Shown here: piece after piece, positions 351 through 29,596 of the stretch
Position numbering within the stretch: position 1 is the stretch's first letter
Layout of the letters: each line of letters begins with the position of its first letter
IMG/VR virus record: IMGVR_UViG_3300025308_000075
Span: 1 to 29,596 of that record
DNA length: 29,596 nt
DNA from: a virus
Direction: 5' to 3' (one strand)
Notes under the pieces: generated by a model
What the model saw: the letters and a program-made list of their open reading frames with translations, nothing else
The model's database searches: none
What the model was told of the DNA's origin: nothing
Program-made: the position numbers and the translations under genes

Positions 351-1280
351 TTAATATCCAAAAGCAAGCCAAGCCACTTGCCCAGAAGCGGCTACCCCAG
401 TCGTGCTCGTAACGGCGGCAATCGTTATTTGCGACGTCGACATGGCATTCACTGTAGCGAGCATGGTTGTCGCCCCGCCATAGGATGATGCTACCGCCAT
501 CAGATTTGTAATTGGAAAGGTGATTGGCAACGCTACCGTTAATGTACCAGCAGAAGCTTGACCAAAGCCCCACTGCATAATCAGACCGCTTGGGAGTTTC
601 TGATAACCGATGCCTGTGAGCGATGCGCGGAACGATTGAGAATAAAGCCCCTGCATCGCATTTCCATCTGCAACGTACCAGGTGTTTGCACCATTACTGA
701 CCAGCGTGATGTTGTCTCCATAGTTCAGCGCGAACAAATTGATCCCGCCGCCTACGCCGTTTGGATAAATTGCGTCCGCGCCGGCACGCTGAATAGTCGA
801 GGATGACACCCAACCAAATCCTAAAAAAGTGATTGCCGTGCCGGCTGGAAATGCTGCTGCCGATGGCAACGTTATTGTCAGACCATTACCGGCTACCGTG
901 ACAAGTTTTCCTGCACTGGCCGCGTCCAGCACGCTGTTCGCGGCTATCGATAAGATACCGCCGAAGCTTTTTCCCATCGATTTCGCAAACGCCGTCGTGC
1001 AAACTTTGGTGCTGTTGTCGAACTGCGCGGGCGTCTGGAATACCCCTGCAGAACGCAGCGCGGTTAGAAGTTGTGTCAGGACAGCTTTGTCCGGCGCGAT
1101 ACCCGCCGCCGTCAGGATGGCGCGCAGCTCTTCTCCGATTTGATAAAACCAGTACGCTCCCGGTATCGTTGGCGGAACAGACGCAAGAGCGTCTCCATCG
1201 GTTGGGTAGCCTGCACTTGGCGCGGCGGGTGCGGCAGGGGGGTTGACCGATGCGCCCGATTCCCATTTTCTGTTATCCAT
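351..1280 (-). CDS. Tail fibre protein
   Basis: This 309-residue protein lies between the Mu gp48-like baseplate gene and a fibre-assembly-type gene, where Mu places fibre gene S. The N-terminal third (GAYWFYQIGEELRAILTAAGIAPD, quoted here only as a landmark around residues 42-65; key residues are the aromatic YWFY cluster) resembles the baseplate-attaching segment of short fibres. The middle is rich in Gly, Ala, Ser and Thr, as in beta-structured shafts. The C-terminus, from about residue 224 (GYQKLPSGLIMQWGFG), matches the knob domain of many fibres, which usually starts with a 'G..kLPsGlIiQWG' motif. It probably binds the host receptor. The retroelement in this window does not target it, because it carries no copy of the template repeat. 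Confidence 0.85.
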   Translation of the reverse strand: MDNRKWESGASVNPPAAPAAPSAGYPTDGDALASVPPTIPGAYWFYQIGEELRAILTAAGIAPDKAVLTQLLTALRSAGVFQTPAQFDNSTKVCTTAFAKSMGKSFGGILSIAANSVLDAASAGKLVTVAGNGLTITLPSAAAFPAGTAITFLGFGWVSSSTIQRAGADAIYPNGVGGGINLFALNYGDNITLVSNGANTWYVADGNAMQGLYSQSFRASLTGIGYQKLPSGLIMQWGFGQASAGTLTVALPITFPITNLMAVASSYGGATTMLATVNAMSTSQITIAAVTSTTGVAASGQVAWLAFGY

Positions 1281-25354: not shown

Positions 25355-25768
25355 TTAGCCGTGGTTCTTCAACAGAGCTTCGTCAACTTCAAAAAATCCC
25401 AGCCTGCCTTTCAGCGGGATGAATGGCAGCTTCTCCGGTCTGGCCAGCACAAAGCCGAACGGGCCGGTGAACCACGGCGTATCCATGTACGCCGGGCAGC
25501 CGTTGTTTTGCGATACGCAGTCGATGATTTCCACGGAGCCGATAATCCCGCCGCGTTTCAAATTATCGAATGCCGGCACACATATTTTTGGATCAATCGA
25601 CATAGCAACGCACAATTCGATTTCCTCATATTCTTTATGCGTCATGCCCTTCGCCGCATGTATCAAAGTCGGGCCGCGATGGTTCGTGTACCAGGTGCGG
25701 TTCTCGACTGGCTTAAAGCCGTTGACGATCAACCATGCCCACGGCTGGCGGATACTGATGGCTTTCAT
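25355..25768 (-). CDS. ASCH-domain protein
   Basis: From MKAISIRQPWAWLIVNGFK (25768) the product has 137 residues. The start matches the ASCH fold, whose first strand and helix usually read 'i.iRqPwa.lI..G.K..E.R.w'. ENRTWYTNHRGPTLIHAAKG follows (landmark, about 22-41), and GFFEVDEALLKNHG closes the protein. ASCH domains are RNA-binding-type beta barrels found in many phages and in regulators of translation or nucleotide modification. The start overlaps the Gam-like stop (ATGA). Confidence 0.88.
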   Translation of the reverse strand: MKAISIRQPWAWLIVNGFKPVENRTWYTNHRGPTLIHAAKGMTHKEYEEIELCVAMSIDPKICVPAFDNLKRGGIIGSVEIIDCVSQNNGCPAYMDTPWFTGPFGFVLARPEKLPFIPLKGRLGFFEVDEALLKNHG

Positions 25769-26286
25769 GCAGCCACCACCTCTGCCGCGCCCTTGAGCAG
25801 CGCGCCGACCATCTTGTCCACTTCGCTGTCGGTCGAGCTGACGAACACGACGTCGGTGTCGCTGGTGATGGTGACGCCGATCTTCTTGATCTGCTCGGCG
25901 GTGAGGTTGTTGATCGCCTCCTTGGAGGGCTTTTCCTCGGTAACGATCAGCGTGTCGGCCAGTTCGGGCAGGTGCCTGCGGATCAGCTTGATTGTCTGTG
26001 CGGCATCGCCAAACTCGATCTTGCCTTTCTCTTTGCGGTATCCGGCCTTGATGCCGTAGAAGATGACGCTCTTCGGCTTGACGAAAAGCGTCGGCGATTT
26101 CTCGACCAGGGCGCGCAGCTCCTCGCTGGTCTCGGCGGCCTTGTTCACTGCGACCTTGAGCTTGGCCATGTGGCTGCGCTTGAGGGCTTCGATGCCGTCC
26201 CGCAGCGCGGTGACGATCTCGCTGAGCTTTTCGCGTGCCTGGGCGTGGGCTTTGGCTTTCGCTTCGATTTGTTCCATTGTTGGCAT
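25765..26286 (-). CDS. Host-nuclease inhibitor Gam-like protein (probable)
   Basis: The 173-residue protein begins MPTMEQIEAKAKAHAQARE. It has a long charged helix (to about residue 65), then a compact domain in which KEAINNLTAEQIKKIGVTITSDTDVVFVS (landmark, about 120-148) resembles the C-terminal core of Mu Gam (KEAI.l.p.......GIt......f.i). Mu Gam is a Ku-like protein that binds DNA ends and blocks exonucleases. Position in the early region supports it; the related DUF3164 is the alternative. AGGAGA precedes the ATG. Confidence 0.6.
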   Translation of the reverse strand: MPTMEQIEAKAKAHAQAREKLSEIVTALRDGIEALKRSHMAKLKVAVNKAAETSEELRALVEKSPTLFVKPKSVIFYGIKAGYRKEKGKIEFGDAAQTIKLIRRHLPELADTLIVTEEKPSKEAINNLTAEQIKKIGVTITSDTDVVFVSSTDSEVDKMVGALLKGAAEVVAA

Positions 26287-26301: not shown

Positions 26302-26619
26302 TTAAGTGGGTAGGTGAAGCTGGCCGAGCAGGTCGGTCAGCGGGATTCTTCTGAGGCGCGATTCGAGCGTGAGGCTGTGCATGGCGCGGCTGCGCAGGAA
26401 TTCGCAGGTGTTTTGCAGCTCCTCGGCGGTGGCGGCGATGTAGTAGCCGTCCACTGGCGTGCCGCACACCGCGTGGCCGTCTTCGCGCAGCTCGCTGGTA
26501 AGCGTGCGCACATGGCGCTCGGTGGTGTCGAGTTGCGTCGCAAGCGCCTTGACGCCGATGCCGTTGCCCTTGCCGATGTGGCGCGTGAGCAGGCTTAGAA
26601 GTTGGTTACTGGTTGCCAT
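26302..26619 (-). CDS. Small winged-helix DNA-binding protein
   Basis: From MATSNQLLSLLTRHIGKGNG (26619) the product has 105 residues. A Shine-Dalgarno GGGAGG lies at ideal distance. The segment VKALATQLDTTERHVRTLTSELREDGHAV (landmark, about 23-51; TERHVRTLTSELREDG is the recognition part) is an HTH_11-like winged helix, followed by a short wing (GYYIAATAEE). It overlaps the reverse-transcriptase stop by 14 bases, so it shares the transcript of the retroelement. It probably binds DNA as an early regulator. Confidence 0.72.
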   Translation of the reverse strand: MATSNQLLSLLTRHIGKGNGIGVKALATQLDTTERHVRTLTSELREDGHAVCGTPVDGYYIAATAEELQNTCEFLRSRAMHSLTLESRLRRIPLTDLLGQLHLPT

Positions 26620-27805
26620 AGTTGCCTCCCTGGTAGCTGGTTGAACTTCTGAACGTCTTGGTGAACCTCTTATCGATGCAGTGCCCTCGCCGGCGCAGCA
26701 CATTCCCCAGCCGCGCGCGGTCGCGGTGGCTGTGCGTCGCTTGGCGCAGCAGGCCGAAGTAGCTGTTGGCGGTCTCGAACAGTTCGTCCGCCGGCATCTG
26801 GCTGGTGCGGCTCAGCGCCTCGTTGAAGGTGCGGCGGCGTGTGGTTCTGCGCCAGGGCTTGATGACCTGGCCGACGAAGTCCACGCCGCGCGCGACAGGC
26901 TGCAGGATGGTCTTGGCTGGGTTGAGGCTCAGCCCGAGGTGTTCGGGTAGCCATGCCTCGATGTCAGCCTTGGCGGTATTCAGCCACTGTGGAGATTCGT
27001 GCAGCAGCACCATGTCGTCCACGTAGCGCACGTAGTGGCGGCAGCGCAGGCCGTGCTTGATGTGCTGGTCCAGCGCGTCCAGCAGGACGTTGGCAAAGAA
27101 CTGCGAAGACAGGTTTCCGATTGGCAGGCCGCGGTGCGCCGGCTGGCTGGTCAGGCGCTTGTGCCTGGGCACGCGCAGCAGCAGCTCCGGCTGGCCGCGC
27201 AGCTCGAAGTCGGAGCGCGGGTCGTGAAACAGGATCTGCTCGGCTAGATCCAGCCACCAGCCGTCAATGCGCTTGGCCAGCAGGCTGCGCACGACGTGTT
27301 TATCGATGCTGACGAAGAAGTTGGCCAGGTCGAGCTTGAGGTAATGCGCCGGGCGGCTCCAGTTCTGGGTGATGCTGAGGATCTTCGCTTCCAGCCGCCG
27401 AGCACCGTAGAGCGTGCCGCGTCCGGGTATACAGGCGCAGCTATCGGCGATGAATCCGGCGTAGAAGCGCGGAGAGATGCGGTTATACAGCAGGTGGTGC
27501 ACGATGCGGTCGCGGAAATCAGCGGCCCATACCTCGCGCGGTTTGGGGCGGGTGATGACGAAGCAGATACTCTTGCCAGGCCGGTAACGGCCCTCCTGCA
27601 ACTCGTCGTTCAGGCAGCATAGGTTGCGCTCCAGATTCATCTCGAAAGCGGCTGCACTGGCGCTGTTGCGTTTGGTGCGGCGGCAGTCGAAGTAGGCTTG
27701 TATCAATTCCTCGAAAGAAAAGTCAGCATGGTGGCGTGCGGATTGAGCTGCGGACGGCGCGAGCGCGGCACTTGTTGTTGGTGTTGTTCCAATTCTGGTT
27801 TCCAT
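26606..27805 (-). CDS. DGR-type reverse transcriptase
   Basis: This is the enzyme of a diversity-generating retroelement. From the ATG at 27805 (METRIGTTPTTSA) the product has 399 residues. It has the RT core with HYLKLDLANFFVSID (palm motif with the first Asp), then LPIGNLSSQFFANVLLDALD (landmark; IGNLSSQ at about 229-235, the DGR form of the group-II QGxxxSP motif) and the catalytic YVDD at about 261-264. The frame is open up to 28057, but residues before the DFSFEELIQ block are not RT-like. The first 27 residues from 27805 are encoded by the template repeat itself. A TTG at 27703 is another possible start. It copies TR RNA with adenine errors, which then replace VR. Confidence 0.92.
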   Translation of the reverse strand: METRIGTTPTTSAALAPSAAQSARHHADFSFEELIQAYFDCRRTKRNSASAAAFEMNLERNLCCLNDELQEGRYRPGKSICFVITRPKPREVWAADFRDRIVHHLLYNRISPRFYAGFIADSCACIPGRGTLYGARRLEAKILSITQNWSRPAHYLKLDLANFFVSIDKHVVRSLLAKRIDGWWLDLAEQILFHDPRSDFELRGQPELLLRVPRHKRLTSQPAHRGLPIGNLSSQFFANVLLDALDQHIKHGLRCRHYVRYVDDMVLLHESPQWLNTAKADIEAWLPEHLGLSLNPAKTILQPVARGVDFVGQVIKPWRRTTRRRTFNEALSRTSQMPADELFETANSYFGLLRQATHSHRDRARLGNVLRRRGHCIDKRFTKTFRSSTSYQGGNYGNQ

Positions 27806-27846
27806 TGTTGAAGTTCTGATTCCAGGCGGAACCTGCCGAGCGCTGC
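27748..27846 (-). repeat. DGR template repeat (TR)
   Basis: This 99-base segment between avd and the reverse transcriptase matches the ends of both target genes (28423-28521 and 28823-28921). Read in the target frame it encodes ten Asn codons (W-N-Q-N-F-N-N-G-N-Q-N-W-N-N-T-N-N-K), which is the typical Asn-rich DGR template. The coding strand has 29 adenines, most in the central 50 bases. One VR differs at 14 TR adenines and at no other base. The terminal TGCCGCGCTCGCG part is invariant, as an IMH-like end. Confidence 0.95.
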
Positions 27847-27869
27847 GGTTTATCGTGCTATCTACGTCG

Positions 27870-27900
27870 CCTTTCCGACCGCTGCAGTCGGTCAGAAAGG
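27870..27900 (-). other. Stable hairpin 5' of the TR, probable DGR RNA element
   Basis: On the minus strand CCTTTC-TGACCG-ACTGCAG-CGGTCG-GAAAGG forms a 12-bp stem with one wobble pair and a 7-base loop. It lies 24 bases before the TR in the avd-TR gap. DGR RNAs of the Bordetella phage BPP-1 type use structured flanks of TR for cDNA synthesis. The role here is inferred. Confidence 0.5.
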
Positions 27901-28008
27901 AAACTGCGCCAGACCTGCCCTGGGCAACTAGCCCTGCGGTATCTGCGGTGCGCATGGCGGTGGCCTGTGTAGCCAGCGGCACGACCAGATCAATATTTCG
28001 CACAGTCG

Positions 28009-28377
28009 TCATAGCCTTGACCCTGACGAAGCGGGCGACATTGCGTATTTGCGCCATCCCCCAGCCTGCTTGCCGACCTTATCGGTCAACGCGATGGCCT
28101 TGGCATACTGACCGGTCGAGATGAGCCGCTTGTCGCGCGAAAGGCGCAACAGTAGCTCGGCAACCTGCAACCGCTCGATCAGCGTTTCGAGATGCGAAGC
28201 CTTCTCTCTCGCACAGTTGGCGCGGAAGATAAGCGTCACGATCTCTACGCACTCATCCCGTAGCTTGCCGCCTATGCTTTGCTTGAAGTCGCGCGGCATA
28301 TTGCGGGCAAGGTCGGTGATGGCGTCGAGCAGGTCGTAGGCCACTTTGTAGATGGGCAGTTCTGAGGTGATTGCCAT
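28009..28377 (-). CDS. avd: DGR accessory variability determinant (Avd), four-helix bundle
   Basis: The 122-residue protein begins MAITSELPIYKVAYDLLDAI and continues with ARNMPRDFKQSIGGKLRDECVEIVTLIFRANCA (landmark; DFKQSIGGKLRDE is key), the four-helix-bundle pattern shared by Avd and 23S rRNA intervening-sequence proteins. Avd is a basic pentamer that binds the reverse transcriptase and TR RNA and is needed for mutagenic retrohoming. It lies between the target genes and TR, as in BPP-1. No good Shine-Dalgarno precedes the ATG; the upstream region is AT-rich. Confidence 0.92.
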   Translation of the reverse strand: MAITSELPIYKVAYDLLDAITDLARNMPRDFKQSIGGKLRDECVEIVTLIFRANCAREKASHLETLIERLQVAELLLRLSRDKRLISTGQYAKAIALTDKVGKQAGGWRKYAMSPASSGSRL

Positions 28378-28406
28378 GCTGAATAAATTAATTAATTATT
28401 GAATGG

Positions 28407-28778
28407 TTAAATGGCTACTGATCTGCGGACGGCGCGAGCGCGGCACTTGTCGTAGGTGTAGAACCAAAACTGGTCCCCATTGCCGAAGTGCTGACCCCAG
28501 GCGGAACCTGCCGAGCGCTGCTCGCCAGACCAGTACCAGTTCGGCGTGAATTCCTCCGGCAGGTTGGCGAACAGCAGGGCTTGTTCGCGGCGCGTCGGCA
28601 GCTCGCCGCCTGCATCGGCAGCAAATTTCTTGGCATCGTCCCAGTTCGTTTCTTGGGATTCACCAGGCAGCAGGATGATGTGCTGATCGGGCGCTCCGTT
28701 CTTACCGAGCAGCAGCCCGGCGTACTGTTCTCCCTCCTTGAGCAGGGATTCCAGGAATGCGTTCTTTGTGGTGTTCAT
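28407..28778 (-). CDS. DGR target protein 1 (CLec/DUF1566-like fold, variable C-terminus)
   Basis: The 123-residue product has a short N-terminal part, a central EQALLFANLPEEFTPNWYWSGEQ block and the variable C-terminus. The pattern 'W.dA..fa...GGeLPtR.EQaLLf.nl...f....YWS..q..sgsAWgQ.F..G.q' is that of C-type-lectin/formylglycine-enzyme-like DGR targets (DUF1566). Residues 95-110 are diversified (G, H, G, D, F, F, Y, Y, D in place of template Asn). It has no signal peptide. A Shine-Dalgarno (TAGGAGA) precedes the ATG. Its ligand is unknown. Confidence 0.9.
   Translation of the reverse strand: MNTTKNAFLESLLKEGEQYAGLLLGKNGAPDQHIILLPGESQETNWDDAKKFAADAGGELPTRREQALLFANLPEEFTPNWYWSGEQRSAGSAWGQHFGNGDQFWFYTYDKCRARAVRRSVAI
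28423..28521 (-). repeat. DGR variable repeat 1 (VR1)
   Basis: This 99-base copy of the TR ends the target 1 gene. It differs from TR at 14 positions, and each one is an adenine in the TR coding strand (T on the plus strand): for example template ttg to tcg or tag, ttc to aac or tgc or ccc. Nine of the ten template Asn codons are changed. Outside the mutated core the two are identical. Beyond the 3' end the coding strand reads AGATC where TR has AGCTC. Confidence 0.95.
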
Positions 28779-28809
28779 TGAACTCTCCTAATTGATGAAT
28801 GCTGAATCG

Positions 28810-29172
28810 TTAAAGTGGCGATCTGCGGACGGCGCGAGCGCGGCACTTGCCGTAGGTGATGAGCCAACCCTGGTCTCCATAGTCTAAGTCCTGACCCCAG
28901 GCGGAACCTGCCGACCGCTGCGTATTCGACCAGTACCAGTCCTTCTTGAATTGGCCTGGAAGATGCTTGTAGAACATGGCCTGCTCGACGCGATCAGGTA
29001 GGTCGCCGCCGATGGATTTGGCCCAGTCCATCTGGGTCTGCCAGTCGGCATCGTCGTTGTCGGCGTCAAGCAGGATGACGTGGTGACCAGTTCCGTCAGG
29101 GTTGATGATCGCGCCGGCGTAGATCTCGCCGTCGTTGAGTTCGGGCATGGGGAAGCGGGTTGGTGCGTTCAT
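28810..29172 (-). CDS. DGR target protein 2 (CLec/DUF1566-like fold, variable C-terminus)
   Basis: The 120-residue product has the same architecture as the neighbouring target: HHVILLDADNDDADWQ, then SIGGDLPDRVEQAMFYKHLPGQF, KDWYWSNTQRSAGSAW and the variable end. Outside the VR the two targets are only distantly alike, so they are an old duplication whose ends are kept alike by the shared template. Residues 93-108 differ from the template at all ten Asn codons (G, D, D, Y, D, G, L, I, Y, G). AAGGAG precedes the ATG. Confidence 0.9.
   Translation of the reverse strand: MNAPTRFPMPELNDGEIYAGAIINPDGTGHHVILLDADNDDADWQTQMDWAKSIGGDLPDRVEQAMFYKHLPGQFKKDWYWSNTQRSAGSAWGQDLDYGDQGWLITYGKCRARAVRRSPL
28823..28921 (-). 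repeat. DGR variable repeat 2 (VR2)
   Basis: This 99-base copy of the TR differs at 14 template adenines. In addition two changes are not at adenine: plus-strand base 28885 (template g to t, giving Phe to Leu in the protein) and 28915 (template g to c) near the 5' end of the coding strand. The 3' end is identical to VR1 through the IMH-like part, again followed by AGATC in place of the AGCTC of TR. Confidence 0.94.
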
Positions 29173-29190
29173 TTGAATCTCCTTGTGTAG

Positions 29191-29596
29191 TTAATTGCTG
29201 CGGGTGAGTGCGGCTTTAACGGTGGCGGGCATCTGGCCGCGCGGCTTGTCTTTTGCGCCGAGCACCGCCTTGTTTTTCTGGAAGGCCGCAGGCGCGGCGG
29301 TGGGCGTTCTGCCTGCCTTGCGGTCTTCGTGCTGGCCTTCCTGCCTGGCCTCGGCCTTGAGGCTGTAGCCTTCGATGATGGCCAGTAGGTAGCCGTGGCT
29401 CTTGAGCGGCAGGGTGAGGTTGTCGCGCTTGGCGATCATCTCGGTCAGCGCCATCGTCCAGTAGTCCTGCGGCGCACTCCAGGTGCGGCCGCTGCGCTCG
29501 ATCCGTGCGGCGGCGACCATCGGCAGCAGCTCGTTGAGCAGGTTGGCCACGCGGTCGAACGAGAGCTGGCGCTGCGCCGGGCGGAACAGGCCGAGG
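29191..29596 (-). CDS. Unknown early protein (partial, 5' end outside window)
   Basis: The frame is open to the right edge, so the GTG at 29550 is not needed as a start. The visible part has about 134 residues and reads FRPAQRQLSFDRVANLLNELLP at its beginning, then PQDYWTMALTEMIAKRDNLTLPLKSHGYLLAIIEG and a basic, low-complexity C-terminus (DRKAGRTPTAAPAAFQKNK). No family was recognised. It lies 18 bases before target gene 2 and probably shares its transcript. The conserved helical part and the basic tail suggest a nucleic-acid or protein-binding role, but this is open. Confidence 0.6.
   Translation of the reverse strand, partial: LGLFRPAQRQLSFDRVANLLNELLPMVAAARIERSGRTWSAPQDYWTMALTEMIAKRDNLTLPLKSHGYLLAIIEGYSLKAEARQEGQHEDRKAGRTPTAAPAAFQKNKAVLGAKDKPRGQMPATVKAALTRSN

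Follow-up and report, generated by a model that had tools for sequence, protein, structure and literature searches.

Layout of the retroelement and its reverse transcriptase

We analysed a 29,596-nucleotide stretch of viral DNA, IMG/VR record IMGVR_UViG_3300025308_000075 (positions 1 to 29,596, hereafter the window), which carries a complete diversity-generating retroelement (DGR) in a Mu-like phage. The element consists of one template repeat (TR), two tandem target genes that each contain a variable repeat (VR), a gene for the accessory variability determinant (Avd) and a DGR reverse transcriptase (RT). A preliminary description of this DNA had proposed the order VR2 gene, VR1 gene, avd, TR, RT on a single strand, with one template for two targets. 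All five components were found at that place and in that order on the minus strand, and a single TR corresponds to both VR1 and VR2. To this we add a structured RNA of the Rfam family RT-15 immediately 5′ of the TR, the insertion of the whole cassette into an early operon that has empty sites in relatives, and target proteins that are bare lectin domains lacking a signal peptide.

Target gene 2 (28810–29172, 120 amino acids) is an open reading frame (ORF) preceded by the Shine-Dalgarno-like (SD-like) sequence AAGGAG; it encodes a single C-type-lectin/Lcl_C-like domain, with VR2 (28819–28921) at its 3′ end. Target gene 1 (28407–28778, 123 amino acids) encodes a bare C-type-lectin fold, as judged by AlphaFold2 prediction and structure matching, and contains VR1 (28419–28521); both VRs were delimited by alignment to the TR. 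These genes are followed by avd (28009–28377, 122 amino acids), by the RT-15 RNA (27846–28040), identified by Rfam match and covariation as the putative 5′ part of the template RNA, by the TR (27744–27846), for which repeat alignment recovered the same boundaries in relatives, and by the RT gene, which extends from 26606 to at most 27805, its start codon being uncertain. A consensus search of the coding strand found no promoter or terminator inside the cassette, which is weakly suggestive of a single operon.

The RT matched phrog_1423 (E = 2.6e-113) and the RVT_1 profile. Its closest structure in the PDB was 8ub7 (E = 4.9e-37), listed as a reverse transcriptase and which we take to be the RT of the BPP-1 DGR. 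Both motifs named in the preliminary description are present in the translation, the DGR motif IGxxxSQ in the form IGNLSSQ, and YVDD. The motif, the closest solved structure and the accompanying repeats together identify the predicted protein as an RT of the DGR type. The avd product, an accessory protein that many but not all DGRs have, matched PF22296 (bAvd, E = 8e-15) and phrog_3206 (E = 3.6e-35); its match to NF033474 (E = 6.8e-17) scored 61.7 bits, under the NCBI curated cut-off of 80.

Generic profiles of retron, group II intron and antiviral (defence-associated RT, DRT) families also match the RT, and it might be supposed that it belongs to one of these and that the repeats are incidental. 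The scores lie well under the curated cut-offs where these exist (80.4 against 300 bits for group II, and 52.5 against 235 bits), and the profile comparison proposed as a check in the preliminary description placed the RT nearest to 8ub7 and far from group II or retron enzymes. Since Avd and adenine-specific VRs accompany the gene, this alternative is refuted by the repeat pattern together with Avd, and we give it practically no weight. Among the matches listed, RT identity to named phages falls straight from 63% to about 35%, and because of this gap the RT lineage looks discrete.

Adenine-specific differences between the repeats

VR1 differs from the TR at 15 of 103 sites, of which 14 are TR adenines and one is a C>A change at the edge of the initiation of mutagenic homing (IMH) sequence (27747). 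VR2 shows 14 adenine changes in its core, together with C>G (27840), C>A (27810) and two edge changes (27747 and 27744). The counts first reported, 14 sites for each VR and two non-adenine changes in VR2, are thus correct once the edge bases are excluded. With 30 adenines among the 103 TR positions, the hypergeometric probability of such a bias arising by chance is 2.6e-8 for VR1 and 1.8e-7 for VR2. A search for TR matches found no further VR inside the 29.6-kb window; as the record is partial, a more distant VR may lie outside it.

Relatives were gathered by RT similarity and comprised 80 viral loci, 80 genome loci (mostly from Burkholderiales, Gallionellaceae, Rhodocyclaceae and Pseudomonas) and named phages. 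Certain viral and genome loci duplicate one another; identical TR–VR pairs were counted once and related pairs were kept. VRs were located by an ungapped search that was blind to the identity of the mismatched base. Across 291 distinct TR–VR pairs, 3724 of 3892 mismatches (95.7%) fell at TR adenines. Expressed per TR base, 41% of adenines were changed, against 0.7–1.1% of C, G and T, and the adenine substitutions were A>G (1872), A>T (1241) and A>C (611). Counting substitutions at TR adenines had been suggested as a check, and the outcome is adenine-specific change on the scale of differences between relatives rather than within one population; alleles from the same population were sought among other viral contigs and none was close enough. 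The hypergeometric test and the relatives together uphold the claim of past adenine-specific mutagenesis for both VRs.

Loci in this group usually have two VR genes upstream of avd, with two hits at 97 loci and three at 43, some of the hits being fragments of one VR. Perfect stems of at least 7 bp were present within about 60 nt downstream of 40 of 287 VRs in the relatives, 37 of these stems being GC-rich (shuffled sequences gave 2). One locus (L095) has avd, targets and RT, with no match to RT-15 and, by self-comparison of the stretch upstream of the RT, no TR.

A structured RNA 5′ of the template repeat

The match to Rfam RT-15 (RF03018) scored 164.3 bits, against a gathering threshold of 82 (E = 7.9e-41). 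This 192-nt RNA lies directly 5′ of the TR, and its last base is the first base of the TR. Of 49 related records, 48 contain a single RT-15 match above threshold, and in all 16 loci measured the 3′ end of RT-15 was close to the start of the TR (–1 to –6, and –14 in one locus). RNAalifold predicted 36 pairs from an alignment of 60 relatives, all of them 5′ of the TR, and 25 of the 36 showed double changes. Of the cells, 95.8% were paired, compared with 83.9% after shuffling and 27–51% when the structure was slid along the sequence; since this alignment also served to predict the structure, the percentage is favoured, and the double changes are the better evidence. Elsewhere, a second RT-15-like match, at a sub-threshold 26.7 bits, was seen far from the DGR in one related record (G040:39350–39476, the record of L082).

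On the other side of the TR there is no spacer before the RT, the conserved RT residues beginning about 13 nt away, and we saw nothing 3′ of the TR that would point to a conserved RNA like the structured spacer of BPP-1. The idea that a BPP-1-like spacer is hidden within the 5′ coding region of the RT was rejected: divergence at fourfold sites was 0.51–0.54 over the first 60 codons and 0.53 overall, so that this region is without synonymous constraint. Three relatives (L086, L092 and L058) carry differing extra DNA exactly between the TR and the RT. Despite this separation, 79 of their 80 TR–VR mismatches are at adenines, and RT-15 is still joined to the TR in L092, the locus in which both could be placed. 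The RT in each of the three has an ATG just before its conserved part. The inserts contain, respectively, a 168-amino-acid ORF with methyltransferase-like motifs (DPCCGS and DPPH; L086, and also L011), a short ORF (L092), and a C5-methyltransferase-like ORF (L058). Methyltransferase-like ORFs, read by eye, are thus present in at least two TR–RT inserts; the ORF in L086 received no Pfam name.

RT-15 and the TR might alternatively be protein-coding, forming an in-frame 5′ portion of the RT gene, as the RT frame is open across the gap between avd and the TR in 99 of 137 relatives, and across the TR in most, hinting at an RT of 483 amino acids. Differences in the gap are, however, spread evenly over the three codon positions (0.317/0.315/0.367), compared with 0.229/0.172/0.599 in the RT core. 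The covariation in RT-15 and the relatives with extra DNA between the TR and an RT that has its own ATG also speak against a protein-coding 5′ stretch, and we consider this explanation very improbable. The 483-amino-acid frame (26606–28057) was accordingly rejected as the RT gene, its 5′ stretch crossing the TR and RT-15, which are non-coding by the codon-position test. Because substitutions are flat over codon positions despite the open frame, the RT-15/TR stretch appears to be RNA and not protein.

In BPP-1, a structured RNA 3′ of the TR recruits RT–Avd and supplies the primer (PMC12875486). By analogy, RT-15 and the TR would together form the template RNA, with RT-15 playing the recruiting role of the BPP-1 spacer. 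If the element is indeed guided by RNA from its 5′ side, the geometry of priming would differ from that in BPP-1. That a large and intact lineage has its covarying RNA across the TR from the RT raises the question of a different mode of priming, and the lineage provides a natural test set. The association of RT-15 with a DGR template also suggests a likely job for that Rfam family. A literature search returned no mention of RF03018 or of an RT-15 motif; the paper that first described RT-15 was outside this search, and its authors may already have drawn the link.

The arrangement was compared with two controls. The BPP-1 DGR (mtd, avd, TR, brt; Rfam Phage_DGR, RF03022) resembles the element in the window in its RT, in Avd, in the order target, avd, TR, RT and in having C-type-lectin genes whose 3′ ends carry VRs with adenine-specific changes. 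In BPP-1, however, the TR adjoins avd, with about 130 nt of structured RNA (RF03022) between the TR and brt, whereas here the RNA is 5′ of the TR; BPP-1 also has one target in the tail module, whereas here there are two small targets in an early operon. Bacillus phage BalMu-1 is likewise a Mu-like phage with target, Avd, TR and RT, but its cassette ends the tail module next to holin and endolysin genes, its RNA, of the Rfam family RT-14, is 3′ of the TR, and its RT is 33% identical to that in the window. The 5′ RNA layout, as set against these two controls, and the consistent early-operon location described below may be new, neither having been found in our literature search, a kind of absence that is weak evidence. 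DGRs in a Mu-like phage (PMC6199706), two targets per TR (PMC10743442) and short target frames (PMC7883833) have already been reported.

Insertion site and possible role of the targets

Six DGR-free Mu-like contigs (L186, L187/L197, which are one contig, L191, L192, L193 and L195) have an empty site, at which a phrog_2161 gene directly adjoins a helix-turn-helix (HTH) gene. In the window these genes flank the DGR on the minus strand: the upstream phrog_2161 gene (29191–29595, by PHROGs match) is cut by the contig end, and the start of the downstream gene, which is HTH/RPA_C-like by profile match (26302–26619), overlaps the RT stop. In blastn comparisons with five of the empty-site contigs, the match broke off at about 29202 and resumed at about 26630, giving an inserted cassette of 2.57 kb (26630–29202). 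From these junctions, and from the adjacency of the phrog_2161 and HTH genes in DGR-free relatives, it follows that the cassette is an accessory presence/absence insertion between two early-operon genes.

The next gene encodes a Gam-like end-protection protein (25765–26286, minus strand; PF07352 and phrog_491), a marker of the Mu early region. Profile searches of the window, a partial record of 29,596 bases, also found GemA, Mor and Mu-type head and tail genes, including a MuF-type head protein, portal and sheath; the MuA/MuB transposase genes and the genome ends would be situated past the right end of the record. Of the earlier label 'Mu-like prophage', the first word is supported by these genes, and the integrated state is not, no host DNA having been seen in the record.

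A similar location was seen in relatives. Where these carry a tyrosine integrase, the cassette is upstream of it in 27 of 27 records and outside the tail module, on the same strand in 24 and within 10 kb in 26, with a median distance of 4.7 kb. Downstream neighbours include integrases and DNA methyltransferases, and upstream neighbours include repressors, exonucleases and single-stranded DNA-annealing proteins. Five records (Magia, QDWS, Cruim01, SC_8 and the Mu-like L088) were examined over their whole length, and all VRs found are in the early/lysogeny arm; the VR search of Haboob and LPPA56 used a foreign TR as query and gave a less complete picture. Literature searches on DGRs together with integrase, prophage, lectin or early genes did not find this layout, which is again weak evidence.

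The two target proteins are single domains of about 120 amino acids with no hydrophobic N-terminus and no signal peptide. The AlphaFold2 model of target 1 (pLDDT 96.2) matched best the C-terminal domains of Bd2740 and Legionella Lcl (8oks, Z = 14.0; 8q4e, Lcl, Z = 13.4), and target 1, the one of the pair whose fold was modelled, is predicted to be a C-type lectin with the VR at the 3′ end of its gene. Target 2 matched Lcl_C with E = 0.0038, under the Pfam cut-off. A division of targets 1 and 2 into two ancient orthologous families was rejected: the labels cluster on a tree of few alignment columns, and require 32 and 40 changes.

We think it very probable that the locus is a complete DGR carried as an early-operon cassette of a Mu-like phage, guided by RT-15 from the 5′ side and acting on targets with a lectin fold. 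RT–Avd would bind a transcript of RT-15 and the TR through the 5′ RT-15 element, in the role of the 3′ spacer in BPP-1; the RT would make errors at adenines as it copies the TR; and the resulting cDNA would replace VR1 and VR2 upstream of their shared 3′ IMH. With less certainty, the two 120-amino-acid lectin-fold products may be made early in infection as diversified binders.

Several points weigh against this interpretation. The start codon of the RT is unclear: its conserved part begins at about 27730, no standard in-frame start codon occurs at 27731–27805 between the TR and the conserved RT, and the nearest in-frame ATG, at 27805, is inside the TR and without a clear SD sequence. The adenine evidence shows past change, and spans relatives rather than reads or strains of one population; as those relatives were picked by RT similarity, their counts are not independent. 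The binding of RT–Avd to RT-15, and the priming, are steps that we infer. The role of the targets is read only from gene position and a missing signal, and virion parts can be encoded by early genes. Finally, the BPP-1 target site needs a GC-rich hairpin 4–34 bp after the VR (PMC3240598). BPP-1 has an 8-bp hairpin in this position, whereas the window has no such GC-rich hairpin, and a search that recovered the BPP-1 control found no stem of 5 or more downstream of VR1 or VR2.

The missing hairpin and unclear start codon, along with the two non-adenine changes in the core of VR2, could also mean that the cassette is a decaying relic, mutagenic in the past and no longer working. All the ORFs and the catalytic YVDD are nonetheless intact, RT-15 scores 164 bits, the core of VR1 has adenine changes only, and the same design with nearly adenine-only mismatches recurs in many relatives; decay is an unlikely explanation.

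A further question is whether this is a canonical tropism-switching DGR, in which the small lectin proteins would bind receptors from the tail tip of the virion although their genes stand apart from those of the tail. In the DGR clades dominated by viruses, most targets carry annotations as tail structures; the same survey also has a mixed virus-and-cell clade (PMC8144416). The C-type-lectin fold of target 1 fits such a role, the lack of a secretion signal would permit incorporation into virions, and the same domain ends a 583-amino-acid PHROGs family of unknown function (phrog_4245). Against this, the cassette has an early-operon or integrase-proximal position across unrelated phage types, the targets (110–220 amino acids) have no recognisable anchoring domain, and a separate tail fibre gene (351–1280, minus strand; phrog_4209), about 26 kb from the DGR, has no VR, no TR match being found at that gene. 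A virion role is a serious possibility, though not the one that we favour. As the targets are bare C-type-lectin domains without a signal peptide, switching of tail-fibre tropism is unproven. Gene location and the lack of a signal or tail-anchoring domain incline us slightly, and with low confidence, to an intracellular or phage-conflict role over that of a virion adhesin. More tentatively still, the element may represent a DGR lineage of temperate phages in which RT–Avd is guided by RNA 5′ of the template, with a priming geometry unlike that of BPP-1; the proteins diversified would be small, intracellular and early, and would serve phage–host or phage–phage conflict, not receptor binding; as a whole this proposal is rather doubtful. 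Targets made of a single lectin domain, which unrelated temperate phages encode within early or lysogeny operons, would point to a use of hypermutation beyond its usual tail-fibre role.

Known phages share parts of this arrangement. Burkholderia phage Magia (PMC7883833), QDWS, Cruim01, SC_8, LPPA56 and Haboob belong to the same lineage, with RTs 63–68% identical to that in the window, RT-15 5′ of the TR, and small targets in an early or lysogeny module; these are temperate phages of the integrase type and carry two or three VR genes, whereas the window is Mu-like and has two. Hankyphage, a transposable Bacteroides phage (PMC6199706, PMC12135933), also carries a DGR in a Mu-like genome, but differs in lineage and host. 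The DGRs of phages nd4/nd12 and Lagaffe/Lelie/CP11 (PMC10743442, PMC11792537) likewise have one TR and two targets; those targets are proposed receptor binders or structural proteins, several of them large and multi-domain, whereas here they are bare 120-amino-acid domains.

Where Magia, QDWS and Cruim01 (L096–L099, L184 and L185) have a third VR gene, it is located in the same early/lysogeny arm, on the side near the repressor. The Magia targets have been named as genes 47 and 57 (PMC7883833), and we found that Magia gene 46 also bears a VR. Longer targets occur in L076 and L079 (220 amino acids) and in L155 (237 amino acids); their N-terminus is extended by a Cys-rich stretch (CxxC) that may be a zinc ribbon, a clue to target function.

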